A stretch of DNA of 22,009 bases from a virus. This document shows, one piece after another, positions 7,002 to 22,009 of this stretch (its first letter is position 1; each line of letters opens with the position of its first letter). A program made the position numbers and the translations under genes. The DNA lies in IMG/VR virus record IMGVR_UViG_3300024518_004225, positions 1 to 22,009 of that record. One strand, written 5' to 3'. Below the pieces are notes generated by a model that saw only the letters and a program-made list of their open reading frames with translations, had not been told where the DNA came from and did not search any database.

Positions 7002-7240
7002 TATATACTCCCTGTGGAGACCAGAATAAGGCCCATCAGTGACGCTAGGACACTTAGCAGGATTGCTCCTGCCATGCCGTAAACGATCTTCTGAACGGGC
7101 GTAAACTGGAATAGGTGTGTATAGTCGTCGAACTTTGCATCCACGTCGTGAATGTCGTCGCTGAGTGCGTCTAGACGTGCCTCTATGCGTCCGAGCTGGG
7201 CTGCCTGCGCTCGATCGTATTCAGAGTTACCGCTGTTCAT
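7001..7240 (-). CDS. XhlA/holin-like protein with coiled coil and one TM span
   Basis: 79 residues: an N-terminal coiled coil (about 8-40, AAQLGRIEARLDALSDDIHD), then FTPVQKIVYG leading into one membrane span (about 52-74) and a short tail. This is the architecture of the haemolysin XhlA family and of small phage membrane proteins with a C-terminal anchor. Start overlaps the stop of the PAS gene by one base (TAATG), and its own stop overlaps the next ATG in the same way, so all three should be translated together. Lysis function is suggested by family only; no endolysin is near. Confidence 0.72.
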   Translation of the reverse strand: MNSGNSEYDRAQAAQLGRIEARLDALSDDIHDVDAKFDDYTHLFQFTPVQKIVYGMAGAILLSVLASLMGLILVSTGSI

Positions 7241-7917
7241 TATACGTTGTCTCCCGTGCGGAAGTCTTCTAGGATGTGCAGTACGCCGATATAGCCAATT
7301 ACGCCACTCTTGCTCATGATAGGGTACGCTGCACTGCGAAAGGTTAAGCGAATCGACCCATCGCGGTTTACCACCCTAATGCCGTGCCACTCGGCTTTCT
7401 CACCTGCAGAAAACGCCGCGTCATATTTGACGTTCAGTTGGGGTAGGTCGTCAGGGTGAATAAAGTTTTCCCACCCTCGTCCCGGCTCACCAAATTTATT
7501 CGGGCCGAGTAGCTCAAACTCTTCAGCCCCGAATATGTCGCACCCGGCACGGTTCACAAATATAGTGCGTTGATCAGGGTCCGATTCCATGATCGCTGAT
7601 TCGACCTCATCTAGGTATAGTCGCTGTTTACTCTGGGCAGCTTCACTTCCCTCTTCTATACCTATCACCCGTGAGAACAGCGCAGGGTTCGTACCGTTCG
7701 GCCCGAGGTGGTAGCGAGTGTAACGGTCAAGATTGTCGAGCTGGGTCGCTAAAGCTGAGTCGTCGACGGCACCACGGACGCTGTCATGGAACGGGACCAG
7801 AAACAGTCTGCGAAACTGTCGCTGAACTGGCGGTAATTGGAGCAGGGTGAAGAGGGCGACAACCAGCCCTACGAAAGCCGCAGCGAATATAACTACACTC
7901 ATCGGAGTGACGCCCAT
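7240..7917 (-). CDS. Membrane-bound PAS-domain protein
   Basis: One N-terminal membrane span (residues 6-27), a basic juxtamembrane stretch (VQRQFRRLF), a helical linker (50-100) and a PAS domain at about 105-217. PAS_3-type features are clear: an IFVNRAGCDIFG core, WENFIHPDDLPQ (Trp149, His154-Pro-Asp-Asp), EWHGIRVVNRDGSIRL and a terminal IGYIGVLHILED strand. No kinase, GGDEF or other output domain follows, so it ends right after the sensor. PAS domains bind small ligands or partners. First of four membrane-protein genes coupled by 1-nt overlaps. An alternative ATG lies at codon 6; neither has a clear Shine-Dalgarno. A membrane PAS protein is unusual in a phage. Confidence 0.82.
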   Translation of the reverse strand: MGVTPMSVVIFAAAFVGLVVALFTLLQLPPVQRQFRRLFLVPFHDSVRGAVDDSALATQLDNLDRYTRYHLGPNGTNPALFSRVIGIEEGSEAAQSKQRLYLDEVESAIMESDPDQRTIFVNRAGCDIFGAEEFELLGPNKFGEPGRGWENFIHPDDLPQLNVKYDAAFSAGEKAEWHGIRVVNRDGSIRLTFRSAAYPIMSKSGVIGYIGVLHILEDFRTGDNV

Positions 7918-8091: not shown

Positions 8092-8433
8092 TTAAGTCGG
8101 AGCCCAGTCCTCATCAACGCGGTCCTTCCACCATAGGTCATCTGACCTACAACGATCACACGGATAAACTGTGCCGTCAGGCTTCTCGACCCATCCATCG
8201 GCACACTTACATGCTCGAAAAAACTCCTCTTTCGGTGTACCTTTACCAATCCACCACTTCAAATAGTTGGCAGCGAGTAGGTAAGAGATGGCTGGAGGAT
8301 CTTCTTCTGGAAGAAAGTTGCCATAAATAAAGTTTGCTGCTTTTGCCTGACCTTCCGGGGATATCTCGGCAAGTTGATCTAGGTAGGTTTCTATCCTACG
8401 AAGCTCTTCTTCTATTGAGAATTTACGAAACAC
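8092..8433 (-). CDS. Hypothetical protein with Cys4 zinc motif, 113 aa
   Basis: GTG start overlapping the end of the helicase-loader gene by 11 nt, with GAAGGGAT 6-7 nt upstream. The first 60 residues are helical (EEELRRIETYLDQLAEISPEG); the C-terminal part has CKCADGWVEKPDGTVYPCDRC, a CxC...CxxC arrangement that resembles DnaJ-type or replication-associated zinc knuckles. Placement directly after the loader suggests a replication-related role, which is inference. A weak 5-bp hairpin (AGAGA/TCTCT) lies after the stop, not convincing as a terminator. Confidence 0.72.
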   Translation of the reverse strand: MFRKFSIEEELRRIETYLDQLAEISPEGQAKAANFIYGNFLPEEDPPAISYLLAANYLKWWIGKGTPKEEFFRACKCADGWVEKPDGTVYPCDRCRSDDLWWKDRVDEDWAPT

Positions 8434-9127
8434 GCCTATCCCTTCCGGGGATGATTCTCGTAACAGACCCTCCGAAGAGGCGTGAGATTACACGCTCGGA
8501 GATATTATCTGTGTACTCTTCTTCGATCAAGTTGGTGGTCACGATAGTTGGAAGCTGCCATTGCCAGCGGTAGTCTACGATAATGAATAGGCGTTCCTCC
8601 ACCCATTCCGTCGTGCGTTCTGAACCAAGGTCGTCTAAACAAAGAACGTCACAAGTCTTGACGCTTTCAAGGATGGCACGCGCCTGATCTTGCTGTCTCA
8701 TGTCGTCGAACAGCTCGAGAATGTTCCACATCTTGACTTTATGGCCTCGGATGTAGAGTTCTCTGCCGATAGCGTATGAGAGGGCGGTTTTGCCTGTTCC
8801 TGTTGGTCCAGCTAGAACTAGGTTCTTTTTCTTTGAGAAGCCGTCAGCGATCCATTCGTTGCCGATGACTTGTAGTTCTTTCCGCATATTAGCAAGCTTC
8901 TCTGGCTTGTGAATCGGGGGAACTCTATCTTCCCACTTTTCGTCGCGGGAAATGCGAACGGATGCATTTCGACGTTTAAGAGATTCTGCAGCGGCTTCGC
9001 GTGAAATCTCAACGTCTTCGTCGGTAACCTCAGGCTCCTCCGATGACATTTCAGCAAGGCGTTTGATGCGATCGCGCACCCTCTGCTTTTCTTCTTCGAG
9101 TTTTTCTTCATCCATCTGGCCCATCAT
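8423..9127 (-). CDS. dnaC: DnaC-like AAA+ replicative helicase loader
   Basis: Loads the replicative helicase onto DNA; IstB/DnaC-type AAA+ ATPase. Visible motifs: a helical N-terminal region with strong charge (residues 1-65), Walker A GPTGTGKT (107-114), Walker B VLCLDDLGS (161-169), sensor 1 TIVTTN (194-199) and an Arg-containing ISERVISRLFGG near the C-terminus. 234 residues is typical. Two adjacent ATGs exist; TAGTGT on the coding strand is 3 nt from the first and 6 nt from the second (9122-9124), so a leaderless start at the second is likely. Divergent from the HNH/initiator operon, with 36 bp between. No helicase gene is in the window, so it may recruit host DnaB. Confidence 0.9.
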   Translation of the reverse strand: MMGQMDEEKLEEEKQRVRDRIKRLAEMSSEEPEVTDEDVEISREAAAESLKRRNASVRISRDEKWEDRVPPIHKPEKLANMRKELQVIGNEWIADGFSKKKNLVLAGPTGTGKTALSYAIGRELYIRGHKVKMWNILELFDDMRQQDQARAILESVKTCDVLCLDDLGSERTTEWVEERLFIIVDYRWQWQLPTIVTTNLIEEEYTDNISERVISRLFGGSVTRIIPGRDRRVS

Positions 9128-9129
9128 GT

Positions 9130-9157
9130 TACACTACGGATCTTCGGATGGTACACT
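9130..9157. promoter_or_regulatory. Divergent promoter region with direct repeat
   Basis: TACACT occurs at 9130-9135 and 9152-9157, exactly 22 bp apart. The second copy lies 6 nt before the ATG of the HNH gene. Read on the minus strand, TAGTGT (9131-9136) lies 6 nt before the second ATG of the helicase loader. Both genes could therefore be leaderless from a 36-bp shared region. Confidence 0.45.
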
Positions 9158-9163
9158 CGGGGG

Positions 9164-9505
9164 ATGGAAGAGGTCTTTCGTGATGGCGAGTACTATGTTG
9201 AGGGCAGTAGCCGTCGCAAGTATGTAGAACGCCCTTGTGGGAAGAGCCATTCTTTGAAGCTTATTTGTCGAGGGTGTGTTAGTGCTCGCGATTTAGCTGC
9301 ACGTAATCGTGCTCAGAATCCTATCATCCCTCATCTTCGGGACTGGGTTTTCAACCGTGACGGGTGGAAGTGTGTCCATTGCGCTTCTCCTGACGACCTG
9401 ACTGCCGACCATATTATTCCCGTGATACAAGGTGGGCGCACTGATCCTGACAATTTGCAGACTTTGTGTCGTCCTTGCAATTCTAGTAAGGGTTCGCGAA
9501 CGTAG
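9164..9505 (+). CDS. HNH endonuclease
   Basis: A 113-residue protein with a complete HNH core: LRDWVFNRDGWKCVHC (first Cys pair CVHC), LTADHIIPVIQGG (catalytic Asp-His), then DPDNLQTLCRPCNSSKGSR (Asn and second Cys pair CRPC). The N-terminal half contains another CGKSH...CRGC, perhaps a second zinc site, and matches the N-terminal extension of some phage HNH proteins. Phage HNH proteins cut DNA for packaging, homing or host-genome breakdown; no terminase is adjacent, so packaging is not supported here. TACACT lies 6 nt before the ATG and there is no spaced Shine-Dalgarno. Confidence 0.88.
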   Translation: MEEVFRDGEYYVEGSSRRKYVERPCGKSHSLKLICRGCVSARDLAARNRAQNPIIPHLRDWVFNRDGWKCVHCASPDDLTADHIIPVIQGGRTDPDNLQTLCRPCNSSKGSRT

Positions 9506-9512
9506 ATCGGTA

Positions 9513-9683
9513 ATGTACGCTTGGCGCATGGAAGCAGAAGAAGATCTATATGTCGATGATGATACCGAGGATCTGGCCGTAGACCATATCCGACCAGCCT
9601 CGTTGGGTGGAAGCTCCCATGAGGGAAACCTACAGATACTCTGTAAGAGTTGCAATTCAGCAAAGAAAGATCGATTCGCATGA
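9513..9683 (+). CDS. Short HNH-like protein lacking the first Cys pair
   Basis: 56 residues with the C-terminal half of an HNH core: LAVDHIRPASLGG (Asp-His), EGNLQILCKSCNSAKKDR (Asn and CKSC). The N-terminal CxxC that normally completes the zinc site is absent; instead residues 7-22 are acidic (EAEEDLYVDDDTED). It begins 7 nt after the stop of the complete HNH gene and its TGA overlaps the ATG of the initiator-like gene. It could be a minimal HNH, a decayed duplicate, or a partner subunit; the frame is intact and codon use normal. No frameshift that would restore an upstream CxxC is apparent. Confidence 0.65.
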   Translation: MYAWRMEAEEDLYVDDDTEDLAVDHIRPASLGGSSHEGNLQILCKSCNSAKKDRFA

Positions 9684-10483
9684 GCATACAGGCAATGAAC
9701 TACGTCTGGGAGCACTCCCAGTACACAGGAACGAAAAAGCTGATCCATATTGCCATAGCAGATGTCGTCAACGACATGCATAACAACGAGTTCTTCATGA
9801 CCAACGATAACCTTGCTGAGAAGGCATCCTGCACGCGCACCTACGCTAATCAGGTTCTCAAAGAGATGGTCGAGGACGGATTGCTGGAACTGGTAGGCAA
9901 AAGGGGTGTTGTGGTTTCCTATAAGTTCCTGTTTAAGGGTGTCAACTCTGTGAACACTAACTGTTCAGAAATTGAACAGTTGACTGTTAACTCTGGCGAT
10001 GGAGGTGTTAACTCTGTGAACACAGAACCCAAAGTAACAAAAGATGGGAACCCAAAGCTAACTAAAGATACGTCCATAAACCCTGAGGTGCAAGAGGTGT
10101 GGGATGCGTATATTGCTACAGTTGAAGAAGTTGAGGGCAAGAAATCCCGGATGAAGTTTACGGACAAGCGGAAAAAGAAGATAACACGCTGGCTAAAGGA
10201 TTATTCGGTTGAAGAACTCACTCTTGCTGTTACAGGCTGGAGATACAGCGCTTGGCATTGTGGTGACAACCCTCAAAGCACCACTTACTACGAGCTTACG
10301 TCGATTCTTGCTGAGGAAGACAGGATTGACAAGCACATCGGCAGGCATGATGAAAAGCAAATCGAGGCTTACCACAAACAAATGAATGCCAACCGGACCA
10401 TAACCGACAAATGGGGACAATCACAAACGAAGACAACAAGTGATATCCTAACCGTTGACGATACGAAAGATTGGGATGACTGA
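9680..10483 (+). CDS. Replication initiator-like winged-helix protein
   Basis: N-terminal winged-helix region (about residues 1-80: TGTKKLIHIAIADVVND, FFMTNDNLAEKASCTRTYA, VLKEMVEDGLLELVG) like HTH_36-type phage replication proteins; a polar linker at 87-125 containing VNSVNT twice; then a helical C-terminal domain (127-220) of the kind seen in phage O/DnaD-like replisome organisers (EVWDAYIATVEEVEG, YSVEELTLAVTGW), and an acidic end. ATG overlaps the preceding TGA (ATGA). Divergent from the helicase loader, which fits an initiator-loader pair. The linker DNA carries iteron-like repeats (9938-10023), as the lambda O gene carries the lambda origin. Family placement is moderate; it could also be a transcription regulator. 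Confidence 0.72.
   Translation: MSIQAMNYVWEHSQYTGTKKLIHIAIADVVNDMHNNEFFMTNDNLAEKASCTRTYANQVLKEMVEDGLLELVGKRGVVVSYKFLFKGVNSVNTNCSEIEQLTVNSGDGGVNSVNTEPKVTKDGNPKLTKDTSINPEVQEVWDAYIATVEEVEGKKSRMKFTDKRKKKITRWLKDYSVEELTLAVTGWRYSAWHCGDNPQSTTYYELTSILAEEDRIDKHIGRHDEKQIEAYHKQMNANRTITDKWGQSQTKTTSDILTVDDTKDWDD
9938..10023 (+). repeat. Iteron-like repeats and inverted repeat, candidate origin
   Basis: Two 20-bp copies (9938-9957 and 10004-10023), identical except for one base, begin GGTGT and end CTCTGTGAACAC. They are 66 bp apart. Between them are a perfect inverted repeat with 9-bp arms (AACTGTTCA at 9959-9967, TGAACAGTT at 9973-9981, 5-nt loop) and a partial third copy TGTTAACTCTG (9985-9995). TGAACA/TGTTCA is shared by all elements. 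Confidence 0.5.
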
Positions 10484-13193: not shown

Positions 13194-13298
13194 ATGGAAA
13201 CCCCTAAGTTCATAAAGAAGCTGCGTCGGGGCAAGGATAAGTCCATTAAGCCCGCAAAAGACAAAGCTCTACGTCTCACAAAGGACAAGTCAGTATGA
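13194..13298 (+). CDS. Basic micropeptide, 34 aa, coupled to protease
   Basis: Reads METPKFIKKLRRGKDKSI and onward for 34 residues (37 if the in-frame ATG at 13185 is used), with ten Lys and three Arg. It ends in ATGA, the A of which begins the protease start codon. TAGTAT lies 7 nt before ATG 13194. No family. Its strong positive charge contrasts with the very acidic protein translated next; it might bind it or DNA, which is inference. Confidence 0.5.
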   Translation: METPKFIKKLRRGKDKSIKPAKDKALRLTKDKSV

Positions 13299-14905
13299 CC
13301 ACTTCTACCACCACCCCGGCCCTCGTTCATAAATCTCTTGGCGTGGAGGGTTGCAAAGTTCTTGATGCCTCTGAAGGTATTGTAGAAGCTTATGTTTCAG
13401 GTATAGGCAACAAGGATTCCGGTGGTGACATCATTGTCCCCGGTGCCTTTGATACATGGCTTCCACTTCGCAAGCCAAAGGGTGTCTGGTCCCACGATTG
13501 GGACAAGCCTGTTAGCAAGACGCTGGAGATTTACGAAGTATTAGCAGATGATCCTCGGCTACCTTTGAAGTTGCAATTGAATAACATTGGCGGTTTGTAC
13601 GTAAAAACCCAGTTCAATATGAACACGCAGCTTGGCAGGGATGCATTCGAGACCGTGCGGTTCTATGGTGACGAAGCAGAGTGGAGCATCGGTTATCAGG
13701 TCCACGATCAAGAGTTTGACAAGAAGTTGGGCGCTATGATCTTGAAGGAGATCGAACTCTACGAGTATTCTCCTGTGCTGTTCGGTATGAACGCACTCAC
13801 GGCAACCGTTTCAGTTAAGGTCCACCAGTTGGAAGACGGAGAGCTTGAGTACGATGTTAAGGGTCTTAATGACCTAGAGTCAAGGGCTGTATCTGCGGCC
13901 CTTAAAGTTATCTTGGAAGAGAAGCAGATCACTGTTGATCCACAAGAAGGCGACAAGGAGCCAGAAGTGAGTTTAGGCGAGAAAGTTTCCGACGAGGAAA
14001 TTGAAGTTTCCACAGACGAAGAGATAGAAGAGAAAACCGTTACTCAAGAGGAGAGTGAAGACGTGAGCGATTCACAAGAAGAGACAAGTGCAAAGACTGA
14101 CGAAGTCGAGGCTGACGCTAAGGCAGAGGAAGTCGAAGAAGAAGAAGTTAAAGTCGAAGAAGAAGACGACGATGAAGTCAAAGTCGATGAAGTCAAAGTC
14201 GATGAAGATGAAGAATATGAAGACGACGAAGATGAAGAAGATGAAGACGAAGACGACGAAGATGAAGAAGAAGATGACGAAAAAGCTTTGGTTTCCGAGA
14301 TCACTAAAGCCGTGATTGAGAACATCATGGGTGGCCTCCAGTCGGTACTCGCCAAGGAAGAAGATTCTGAGGTTGAGATTAAAGAAGAGGATTCTGAGGC
14401 TGAGGTCAAAGAAGAGGATTCTGAGGCTGAGGTTAAAGAAGAAGATTCTGAGGCTGAGGTCAAGGAAGAGGATTCTGAGGCTGAGGTCAAGGAAGAAGAT
14501 TCTGAGGCTGAGGTTAAAGAAGAGGATTCTGAGGCTGAGGTCAAGGAAGAGGATTCTGAGGCTGAGGTCAAGGAAGAGGATTCTGAGGCTGAGGTCAAGG
14601 AAGAAGATTCTGAGGCTGAGGTTAAAGAAGAAGATTCTGAGGTAGACGAAAAGGATGACGAAGTAGAGGTCGAGGAGAAGACCGACACCGAGGATTCCAG
14701 CGAGGATGCAGAAGAGAAGTCCGAGGAAGTCGAAGCTAAGGAAGAAGATTCCGAGGTAGAGGCGAAGGAAGATGAAGTTGACGAAGACTCCGAAGAGAAG
14801 TCCGTAGAGGACGAGAACTCGGACGAGAAGTCAGACGACATCTCTGATATGGATTTCCTTAAAGGACTTGCAGAGTTTGACGAAATGCTGTCAGATACCC
14901 TGTAA
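13295..14905 (+). CDS. HK97-type prohead protease with long acidic repeat tail
   Basis: Capsid maturation protease (peptidase U35). Residues 15-175 carry the domain: SEGIVEAYVSGIGNKDSGGD, VVPGAF-like IIVPGAFDTWL, the catalytic His67 in VWSHDWDKPV, Ser131 in EAEWSIGYQV, and KEIELYEYSPVLFGMNA (Glu152/154/157 candidates for the triad). Family members are usually about 200-250 aa; here residues 230-536 are an extra, extremely acidic region of Glu, Asp, Ser, Val and Lys. It includes 11 consecutive nine-residue units KEEDSEAEV (354-452) and a Phe/Leu-containing end (DFLKGLAEFDEMLSDTL). The tail may act as a fused scaffold, as protease-scaffold fusions are known in other phages. ATG overlaps the basic micropeptide stop. 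A strong terminator follows. Confidence 0.9.
   Translation: MTTSTTTPALVHKSLGVEGCKVLDASEGIVEAYVSGIGNKDSGGDIIVPGAFDTWLPLRKPKGVWSHDWDKPVSKTLEIYEVLADDPRLPLKLQLNNIGGLYVKTQFNMNTQLGRDAFETVRFYGDEAEWSIGYQVHDQEFDKKLGAMILKEIELYEYSPVLFGMNALTATVSVKVHQLEDGELEYDVKGLNDLESRAVSAALKVILEEKQITVDPQEGDKEPEVSLGEKVSDEEIEVSTDEEIEEKTVTQEESEDVSDSQEETSAKTDEVEADAKAEEVEEEEVKVEEEDDDEVKVDEVKVDEDEEYEDDEDEEDEDEDDEDEEEDDEKALVSEITKAVIENIMGGLQSVLAKEEDSEVEIKEEDSEAEVKEEDSEAEVKEEDSEAEVKEEDSEAEVKEEDSEAEVKEEDSEAEVKEEDSEAEVKEEDSEAEVKEEDSEAEVKEEDSEVDEKDDEVEVEEKTDTEDSSEDAEEKSEEVEAKEEDSEVEAKEDEVDEDSEEKSVEDENSDEKSDDISDMDFLKGLAEFDEMLSDTL
14354..14650 (+). repeat. Eleven 27-bp tandem repeats in protease tail
   Basis: Eleven units in register without indels; nine encode exactly KEEDSEAEV, the first encodes KEEDSEVEI and the last KEEDSEVDE. 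Copies differ only at synonymous third positions (AAA/AAG, GAA/GAG, GTC/GTT). Units 5-6 and 9-10 share the same codon pattern, suggesting block duplication. Confidence 0.95.
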
Positions 14906-16540: not shown

Positions 16541-16786
16541 ATGGATAAAGGTAGCTTGATGGGGTTATTGCGTCAGCAAGCATGGAAGGCTGATGCGTCA
16601 TGCATGGGTCAAACGGATTTGTTTTATCCAGACCCACTTCACCCCGACCTTGAAGAGATCCTTGACGTAACAAAAGAGATTTGCAAGTCCTGCCCAGTAA
16701 AGGTTGAATGCGGTAAACATGCTGACGGTCGACCTGAAGAGTTTGGGGTTTGGGCTGGTAAATGGAGAGAGGCGGATTACCAGTGA
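16541..16786 (+). CDS. WhiB-family iron-sulfur regulator
   Basis: WhiB-like (Wbl) proteins bind a 4Fe-4S cluster and partner with the primary sigma factor to alter transcription; they are confined to Actinobacteria and their phages. The four cysteines are Cys21 (DASCMGQTDLFYPD), Cys48 and Cys51 (EICKSCPVKVEC) and Cys57. The beta-turn motif, normally GVWGG, reads FGVWAGKWRE at residues 68-77, followed by almost no basic tail, so the DNA-contacting C-terminus is minimal. 81 aa is typical of small Wbl proteins. ATG has AAGGA 6 nt upstream. It directly follows the capsid terminator, an odd place for a regulator. Phage WhiB proteins such as that of TM4 interfere with host WhiB2; a similar role here is inference. 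Confidence 0.9.
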   Translation: MDKGSLMGLLRQQAWKADASCMGQTDLFYPDPLHPDLEEILDVTKEICKSCPVKVECGKHADGRPEEFGVWAGKWREADYQ

Positions 16787-19256: not shown

Positions 19257-22009
19257 CCACGTCAAAGTTCACAGCAGTCCACGTTGACGGCTATGGACTG
19301 AGGGGCAATTCCCCCCTTTTCAACGATTCGGCTGCCACGATAATTGCGCGCAACCATTCGGCTGCGAACGCTAAAGGGTATGCATTTTTCAAGTTTGCAG
19401 TTTCGGGCATTGAGCCCGGTGCAACAATTGATGCTGCCGCCATTCGCCTGACCGGACAAAATGGTTCAAACAGTCTAGGTGGTGGCAGCGATATCAAGAT
19501 TTCGGTGCAGGACGACATCACCGATTTCACTATCTCCAATACAGCTACGACGCGCCCCGTCTACTTTCTTGAAACCAGCGTCACCCTAACCTCAGATGGA
19601 GTGAACGACTACGTTTACTTCGATGATTCCTACTCAACTTACACGGATGGAACGGGGCCGGTAACTGGCGGTGCCTCCGTCGGAAGCAGCGCCGACTTTT
19701 GGTCACCAGATATAGGGTCGCTCCTTCAAGATCTCGTTGACGACCCATCGTGGACCACAGGAACCCATTACATCACCATCTGGATTTGGGGACAAACTAC
19801 AGCCAGTGCCGGTGTGTTCACTGTCTACTCAAGTGAGAACGTTTCAGGCGAACCAGACCCGTACCTGTACATTGATCACACCCCCCCCGTCTTCCCTGAC
19901 TCTATTGGGTCTGCTGAGGACGTCCCTTCTCTCGCGTGGATAAATACCCTCGAAGGAAGCTACTCGACTGCGACCCCGGACTACTACGACGCTACCCAAA
20001 ACGGAATCGGGGCAGTATCTGACAACGACTTCACTCTGCGCTGTAACGCTAGCACTACCGCTGGTAGCGAAGACTATTTCCAAGTAAAGATTCCTACCAT
20101 TCCTTGGGCGGAAACGCTGACTGGGTTCACTTACCGTAGCAATATGCAAACTGCGGGAACTACTACTATAGATGGTAATCTGGCAGTAGTTAAAACTGGC
20201 TTAGGAACGATTACCGATGGAGTCGTCGATGGTATCTCTGACCTGTACGACGCTTTCATTGTTGGCGGGGGAACTCCTGTAGCATGGACTGTTACTGCCG
20301 CCAAGGGCAGCACTGCAGAGACGCCGGACCTCTCTGATCTAGCGAATGATATTTTGCAAGACGTTGGCTACGACCCTTTGACGGACACTCTCTCAATTAT
20401 TTTCAAGGGGTCTAACAGTGTTGATGAGGTAGCCTCACTGTACAATGCCACGAATGGGTCCGGCTATGTCCCCAAACCTCTTTTCGATTGGGCACCACTC
20501 CACCGAGTGAAAGCAGTGGACAGCGTTAGCTCCAGTGAGAGCGTGGGTAGCCCCGAGATAACTTTCTTTGATACAGGGATCTTGCGAGACCTAGGAGATA
20601 GGTCTGGGGTGTACGCGTCTCCCGTCCTAAACGGAAACCTTGGGTGGGATGTTTCATCTGTTGCGACGTCGAGTAACCAAATCGACAAGTTGATGGACAA
20701 GGACTTTGCGTCACCAAGTGCCACTTCGTACTTTAAGACCGACAACACCGCTAATAGCTGGTTCTCACTTGATTTTGGTGTTGCAGTTCAAGTCGATGCT
20801 TACACCATCATGCCTTCGAACGAAGGCTACTTACTTCGAAACTGGAAACTGCAGGGGTCGAGCGACAATTCTATTTGGACTGATGTCGATATTAGAATCA
20901 GCGACAGTGAAATTGCAACGACTTCTGACCTTGGTCATTTTGTTTGCTCCGAAAGTGGAGATGTCGGATATTATCGGTACTACAGGCTGCTTCAGGACGG
21001 ACTGAACGCTGACGCCGATAACGTTCTTGCGATTGAGCAGATAGAATTTAATGGGGACCATCCGGGCTTCAGTGGGATCACACTGGATACGCTCCCCGAA
21101 AACTACGTCGCAAAGCAGAGCACTCTTGCTGATTACACGGATACGGGAGGTATTTTCTACGGTCTCGGTACGGGATTCGGGGCGAGTAGTTGGTCGAATC
21201 CGGTCGATAATGTTGAGGTTAGTTACTCCCAGTCCAGCGTTTTCTCAGGGCGAACGTTGAATCAGGTTTCAGATCATGCTTCGGCTACTTGGACGTCAGG
21301 TTCAGGCAACTCTCACTGGGGTAAATGGGACTTCGGTACAACCAACGAGGTGAACGTCAAAGGCATCGCCTTGAACTCTCACGCAACGCTCAACGAAGCT
21401 CTTCAGAATTTTGTGGTGGAGGGGTCAGACAACGACTCTGACTGGACGACACTAGTAACGGTTGGAACTAGAGATCCACTTGTCACTACGGAAGTTTTCT
21501 ACTGGGCCGACGATATTGAAGATACGACGACATGGAGATACCTTCGCTATACCGTCACCATGAGTTCATCTCGCGCTCGTATAACTGAGCTTGACTTTTA
21601 CGGGTTTGTGGGCGAACCTACTGCGGTTGTTTCCCCAGATTCTGTATCCTCTGGCGAGGACGTTAGCAATGTCACGATCACGGCAGGGGCTGTTACTGTT
21701 TCCCCAGATTCTGTCACCTCCGACGAGGATGTCAGTGAGCCCACAGTAACACTTGGGGCTGCTACTGTTTCCCCAGATTCTGTAACTTCTGACGAGGACG
21801 TTAGCGAGCCTACAGTAACGGCAGGGGCTGTTACTCTTTCCCCAGATTCTGTCACCTCCGACGAAGACGTCAATAACGTCACGATCACGGTTGGGGCCGT
21901 TACTCTTTCCCCAGATTCTGTATCTTCTGATGAAGATGTCAATGACGTCATAATAACGACTGGACCCGTTACTGTTTCCCCAGATTCCGTTCTGACTGAC
22001 GAGGACGTT
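19253..22009 (+). CDS. Large modular adhesin/tail protein, partial (919+ codons)
   Basis: Open from ATG 19253 to the end of the window without a stop. Modules: residues 1-210, a carbohydrate-binding-like beta sandwich (AFFKFAVSGIEPGATIDAAA and YITIWIW, DNRLRE/CBM96-like); 211-460, less clear; about 465-600 and 655-782, two discoidin (F5/8 type C)-like domains (NSWFSLDFGVAVQVDAYTI, LRNWKLQGSSDNSIWTDV; HWGKWDFGTTNEVNVKGIAL, FVVEGSDNDSDWTTLV); from 790, 23-residue repeats with core SPDSVTSDEDV. The motif also occurs singly as PDSIGSAEDVPS (about 215) and DSVSSSESVGSPE (about 422). Probably a receptor-binding or surface-decorating virion protein. A C8 tract at 19881-19888 lies in the coding frame. 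Expression is probably coupled to the leader ORF. Confidence 0.82.
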   Translation, partial: MTTSKFTAVHVDGYGLRGNSPLFNDSAATIIARNHSAANAKGYAFFKFAVSGIEPGATIDAAAIRLTGQNGSNSLGGGSDIKISVQDDITDFTISNTATTRPVYFLETSVTLTSDGVNDYVYFDDSYSTYTDGTGPVTGGASVGSSADFWSPDIGSLLQDLVDDPSWTTGTHYITIWIWGQTTASAGVFTVYSSENVSGEPDPYLYIDHTPPVFPDSIGSAEDVPSLAWINTLEGSYSTATPDYYDATQNGIGAVSDNDFTLRCNASTTAGSEDYFQVKIPTIPWAETLTGFTYRSNMQTAGTTTIDGNLAVVKTGLGTITDGVVDGISDLYDAFIVGGGTPVAWTVTAAKGSTAETPDLSDLANDILQDVGYDPLTDTLSIIFKGSNSVDEVASLYNATNGSGYVPKPLFDWAPLHRVKAVDSVSSSESVGSPEITFFDTGILRDLGDRSGVYASPVLNGNLGWDVSSVATSSNQIDKLMDKDFASPSATSYFKTDNTANSWFSLDFGVAVQVDAYTIMPSNEGYLLRNWKLQGSSDNSIWTDVDIRISDSEIATTSDLGHFVCSESGDVGYYRYYRLLQDGLNADADNVLAIEQIEFNGDHPGFSGITLDTLPENYVAKQSTLADYTDTGGIFYGLGTGFGASSWSNPVDNVEVSYSQSSVFSGRTLNQVSDHASATWTSGSGNSHWGKWDFGTTNEVNVKGIALNSHATLNEALQNFVVEGSDNDSDWTTLVTVGTRDPLVTTEVFYWADDIEDTTTWRYLRYTVTMSSSRARITELDFYGFVGEPTAVVSPDSVSSGEDVSNVTITAGAVTVSPDSVTSDEDVSEPTVTLGAATVSPDSVTSDEDVSEPTVTAGAVTLSPDSVTSDEDVNNVTITVGAVTLSPDSVSSDEDVNDVIITTGPVTVSPDSVLTDEDV
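21620..22009 (+). repeat. 69-bp tandem repeats at adhesin 3' part
   Basis: Five full units and part of a sixth, each 69 bp (23 codons), with the TCCCCAGATT landmark at 21632, 21701, 21770, 21839, 21908 and 21977. Core reads VSPDSVTSDEDV followed by a variable SEPTVT/NNVTIT segment and Gly-Ala. The array continues past the window. Confidence 0.95.

Follow-up and report, generated by a model that had tools for sequence, protein, structure and literature searches.

In phage lambda the initiator protein O binds four inverted-repeat iterons in the middle of its own gene O, where it assembles into the O-some and opens the neighbouring AT-rich region, and two iterons beside this AT-rich region are sufficient in vitro (PMC7466680, PMC3985674); the statement of a first-pass annotation of the DNA studied here, that lambda carries its ori iterons inside gene O, agrees with this published account. 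The origins of the Stx phages P27 and 933W comprise iterons and an AT-rich region in mid-gene O, as in the locus described below, and carry six iterons of the lambda sequence, unlike this locus (PMC7466680). For phage P1 an origin, oriL, was likewise proposed within an initiator gene, repL, an A/T-rich part of which is required, as was shown with synonymous changes; the initiator belongs to another family and the term iteron is absent from that report (PMC9948254).

Within the window, i.e. the whole stretch of 22,009 nucleotides that was analysed, we found an array of dyad repeats in an O-like gene which very probably constitutes a lambda-type intragenic replication origin of a tailed phage, where initiator binding, unwinding and initiation would take place as read from the sequence. 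The features are as follows.

8423–9127, minus strand: DnaC-like helicase loader gene, divergent (PHROG 50, E 6.6e-40; Pfam IstB_IS21, E 1.3e-13)
9680–10483, plus strand: O-like replication initiator gene, 267 aa (PHROG 270, E 7.7e-10; 6643, E 1.4e-9; 678 and 345: replication initiation / O-like)
9680–9931, plus strand: sequence coding a predicted winged helix-turn-helix domain, residues 1–84 (AF2 model)
9940–9956, plus strand: iteron 1, TGTCAACTCTGTGAACA, 10/12 dyad positions, frame 2, within the 20-bp copy 9938–9957
9962–9978, plus strand: iteron 2, perfect dyad TGTTCA-GAAAT-TGAACA, 12/12, frame 0, within the palindrome 9959–9981
9985–10001, plus strand: iteron 3, degenerate, left half TGTTAACTCTG retained, right half gone
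10006–10022, plus strand: iteron 4, TGTTAACTCTGTGAACA, 11/12, frame 2, within the 20-bp copy 10004–10023
10025–10069, plus strand: A-rich 23-bp direct repeat, 1.9 copies, GAACCCAAAGYTAACWAAAGATGG, TRF score 76, proposed unwinding element
10073–10360, plus strand: sequence coding the C-terminal domain (37% identity to the replication initiation protein of Vibrio phage VvAW1, E 3e-6)

The repeated unit is the 17-bp dyad TGTTCA-N5-TGAACA, of which four phased copies start at 9940, 9962, 9985 (half-degenerate) and 10006, three of them good, with start-to-start steps of 22, 23 and 21 bp. The half-sites lie at 9940, 9951, 9962, 9973, 9985, (~9996, lost), 10006 and 10017, and given these steps of 10–12 bp (about 11) they share one helix face. 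The first-pass annotation had recorded two 20-bp direct repeats at 9938–9957 and 10004–10023 (19/20 identical, offset 66 bp), a perfect 9-bp inverted repeat (AACTGTTCA, 9959–9967; TGAACAGTT, 9973–9981; spacer 5 nt) and a partial third copy (TGTTAACTCTGG, starting at 9985), and all of these elements are real. The right description is, however, four sites and not two repeats with a separate palindrome, the palindrome being iteron 2. The sequence TGAACA/TGTTCA, said to be common to all elements, is indeed shared by the others but not by the partial copy at 9985, which lacks the TGAACA half.

A palindrome with TGTTC/GAACA half-sites might also be read as a repressor or SOS box, or as a terminator hairpin, which we regard as extremely improbable. 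Gram-positive and mycobacterial SOS boxes have the form GAAC-N4-GTTC, compared with which the half-site order is inverted and the spacing different in the window, and no T-run follows the hairpin.

The lambda origin in gene O (NC_001416: 39034–39118) is like the window in having four 6-5-6 dyad iterons about 22 bp apart over a span of ~85 bp. The iteron starts are spaced by 20/24/23 bp in lambda versus 22/23/21 bp in the window, the array begins at 0.39 versus 0.33 of the gene length, and in both cases an A-rich stretch follows the array on the same side and on the coding strand. The half-sites differ (TCCCTC-N5-GAGGGA in lambda versus TGTTCA-N5-TGAACA), iteron 3 of the window has, unlike lambda, lost one half, and the DnaC-like loader is divergently transcribed whereas lambda P lies in the same operon. 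Judged by sequence, every feature of the lambda origin that can be tested appears to be present: a position inside a gene coding for a phage replication initiator (PHROG replication initiation / O-like), the N-terminal winged helix and layout of the O-like family (PHROG 678, 345 and 391; winged-helix model), multiple phased dyad iterons at intervals of about two helical turns, an adjoining AT-rich and easily melted region (60% A+T) and a companion helicase loader.

That the array falls in the linker-coding part of a winged-helix initiator-like gene divergent from a DnaC-like loader, as had been proposed, is borne out by the PHROG matches and the AF2 model. The latter, calculated on a 9-sequence alignment, gave the N-terminal domain a mean pLDDT of 73 and the order H-H-E-H-H-E-E, and Foldseek returned weak matches of this model to MarR-type winged helices (E at least 1.3e-3). 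Weak Pfam matches of the same domain were to HTH_Crp_2, DnaD_N and RepL, and none of the Pfam models reached its own cut-off against the initiator. Prediction of the whole initiator from the single sequence was not usable (pLDDT 36), and an Rfam search yielded no match. Between the two replication genes lie an HNH endonuclease gene (9164–9505) and, after it, another HNH copy (9528–9683), which is truncated at the N-terminus and overlaps the start codon of the initiator gene. An actinobacterial host is probable, as suggested by a WhiB-like gene at 16541–16786 (Pfam Whib, E 1.4e-10; the contig has only 50% GC) and by a portal closest to Gordonia phage portals.

With respect to the coding sequence that overlaps the array, the DNA repeat could be a by-product of the repeated linker peptide VNSVNT, having no function as DNA. 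Both copies of the direct repeat encode GVNSVNT, and under synonymous recoding alone the two still agree at a mean of 15.5/20 positions, with 333 of 20000 recodings reaching 19/20; the direct repeat is in part due to the repeated peptide. Such an explanation is less easily extended to the whole array. When the initiator gene was scanned without a given motif for sets of four phased 18-mers 19–25 bp apart, with synonymous shuffles as the null, the best array coincided exactly with the iteron sites and had a score of 68, a value reached in 12/5000 shuffles (mean 57.3, sd 2.9); on lambda gene O the same scan recovered the four annotated iterons exactly. Iteron 2 repeats the motif in another frame and encodes the unrelated peptide CSEIEQ, whereas iterons 1 and 4 encode GVNSVNT; the common DNA is therefore not a common peptide. 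Furthermore, the adjoining A-rich repeat shifts frame as well, a 1-nt indel setting the first ten bases of its two copies in different frames.

The single-window statistics of the array are moderate, the inverted repeat alone being reached in 917/20000 recodings, and together with the 12/5000 for the array they leave some room for the repeats being chance in a short stretch, a reading taken up again below. Among the 60 of 95 20-mer pairs listed (those beyond sort after position 21704), the copies at 9938–9957 and 10004–10023 form the sole pair with at most one mismatch outside two long coding tandem arrays. A second stretch of the window, 1976–2060, scored 66–68 in the phased-array scan and overlaps short low-complexity tandem repeats (CAACACCCAA). 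Repeats were also noted at 13295–14905, in the gene directly before the capsid gene, whose product carries a long acidic tail made of repeats (10.7 copies of a 27-bp unit), and at 21628–22009, where 69/138/207-bp tandem coding repeats run off the contig end.

The A-rich repeat begins directly after iteron 4. The 50 nt downstream of iteron 4 contain 50% A, corresponding to the 98th percentile within the gene, and the best 50-bp window of the repeat ranks at the 99th percentile of the contig for low duplex stability. Its A+T content of only 60% makes it weaker than the AT-rich region of lambda, and several other spots of the contig melt more easily. The cumulative GC skew, which the first-pass annotation had suggested as a check on the full genome, was computed on the contig only, the 22 kb being an incomplete genome. 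Its minimum at 9137, ~0.8 kb from the array, fits an origin, yet it is confounded with a switch of gene direction at the same place.

Close homologs of the initiator or the loader were not found in viral_contigs, where only C-terminal relatives occur, nor were close homologs of the initiator found in genome_contigs. For a profile search, the alignment of the N-terminal part offered no stretch of sufficient conservation. Structural relatives based on the portal comprised 44 contigs; no initiator or loader match was detectable in the 29 records of portal relatives searched, so that these could not serve as orthologs. The N-terminal ~200 residues of the 13295–14905 product are conserved in portal-related contigs. 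Two further genes of the window, both unusual for a phage, belong to the peptidase M24 family (methionine aminopeptidase-like; 597–1340) and to the PAS-domain proteins (7240–7917).

More distant relatives could be compared. The winged helix of KellEzio gp40 (Arthrobacter phage; O-like) is related to that of the window initiator at the N-terminus (34%, E 5e-4), and its array is weak (2/150). The O-like homologs Decurro gp23 (likewise from an Arthrobacter phage), related in the N-terminal winged helix too, C72C1 and L073 carry arrays of other sequence at the same place, the one of Decurro being phased and in the linker; the repeat sequences of both KellEzio and Decurro differ from the window. 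No arrays were found in the related initiators VvAW1, Va_PF430-3_p42, phiLC3 and NIIg3.2, and the TGTTCA-N5-TGAACA array is absent from the DnaD-type initiators of the cultured phages Palmer, AP45, D6E, PK3.5, phiLC3, NIIg3.2 and TPWB-10. Arrays of other sequence follow the N-terminal domain in Palmer (L097), AP45 (L099) and D6E (L101), with 0/200 synonymous shuffles in each case. An array in the linker thus appears common but not universal among O-like relatives.

As no close homolog was present in the searched collections, a blind scan by the DNA motif alone took the place of an ortholog comparison. Two patterns were searched in 2.9 million viral contigs, yielding 20 distinct contigs together. 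The first, two tandem dyads, occurred in 10 contigs versus 0.006–0.06 expected from base composition when the collection is taken as about 4e10 bases (our estimate), and the second, three half-sites in 11-bp steps, in 12 contigs versus 1–3 expected by chance. A winged-helix gene contains the array in nine of the 20 contigs (L075, L077, L078, L079, L080, L082, L083, L088, L090), and eight of these genes match replication families, L079 only at E 9e-4; the gene of L078 is without such a match and its winged helix was judged by eye from the alignment. In five contigs (L085, L086, L087, L089, L092) the array directly adjoins a small gene, which matches a replication-initiation family in all except L086. 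The arrays of L074, L076 and L081 are not tied to an initiator; L084, L091 and L093 have one sequence in common, which contains only one dyad, and were discounted as chance matches. A separate search with 18 bases of the 20-bp repeat gave three matches in unrelated genes or intergenic DNA, which were rejected. Since the motif of the window, searched blind, led to replication genes in most matches, the probability that the repeats are mere chance is close to negligible.

By BLASTP the window initiator gave no match at E 0.01 to the other nine intragenic-array initiators, and most matching pairs among the ten share 20–37% identity, so that these predicted initiators show a high degree of mutual divergence. 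In eight of the ten genes the A content of the 50 nt following the array reaches at least the 95th percentile for that gene, the exceptions being L080 (80th percentile) and L090 (13th). Together the ten genes, that of the window among them, contain 43 sites of at least 10/12, which occupy frame 2 (23 sites) or frame 0 (20 sites); frame 1, where the TGA of TGAACA would be an in-frame stop codon, is not used at all. The encoded peptides differ from gene to gene (VHHMNT, CSPHEQ, VQKMNS, CSENEQ, VQGVNT and others). Within diverged winged-helix initiator genes the DNA motif thus appears to be kept while the reading frame is free, and with both stop-free frames in use and the peptides differing, the origin of the repeats as a by-product of VNSVNT is very unlikely.

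The arrays outside genes bear on a further explanation, according to which the repeats are an autoregulatory operator through which the winged-helix protein controls transcription of its own gene, replication starting elsewhere. The MarR-like winged helix predicted for the encoded protein would suit this role, as would the five arrays that adjoin a small gene, in four cases one with replication-initiation matches; those of L085, L086 and L089 precede the gene start, the position expected of an operator. The arrays of the ten intragenic cases, however, are located mid-gene and not at promoters, most are then followed by an A-rich element, the geometry fits the lambda origin and the genes match replication families. 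We consider the operator in place of an origin unlikely, and the two roles are not mutually exclusive. In L087 (10170–10252) and L092 (3917–3977), both AT-rich contigs, arrays of the same dyad stand 2–13 bp past the stop codon of a winged-helix gene of 95–97 aa that matches replication-initiation families, and are candidate origins of another phage group.

The reading of the window array as a replication origin, put forward in the first-pass annotation, is supported by the gene families, the lambda-ori geometry, the A-rich repeat, the skew minimum and the blind recurrence of the motif. In such an origin, initiator dimers would bind the iterons via the N-terminal winged helix. Because the half-sites are ~11 bp apart, bound dimers would face one side and could form an O-some-like complex with wrapped DNA, by analogy with lambda. 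This complex may strain and open the A-rich repeat, to which the divergently encoded DnaC-like loader would deliver the helicase.

The chances are evenly balanced that TGTTCA-N5-TGAACA is a recurrent iteron of diverged winged-helix phage initiators, occurring in different hosts and families and in whichever stop-free frame fits. No description of the motif as a phage iteron was found in the literature searched, which is thin in subscription journals, and we do not claim it as unreported. If the motif is such an iteron, the origin of one phage could be bound and interfered with by an unrelated phage, and origins could be located by the motif in uncultured phages.

For the uncultured, probably actinobacterial phage studied here, the analysis provides a well-placed predicted origin, and it speaks for intragenic origins of the lambda type far beyond the lambdoid phages. 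A short iteron motif alone picks replication genes in very different phages and thereby offers a testable origin finder for metagenomic phages, and its recurrence raises the question of whether unrelated initiators may cross-recognize each other's sites.
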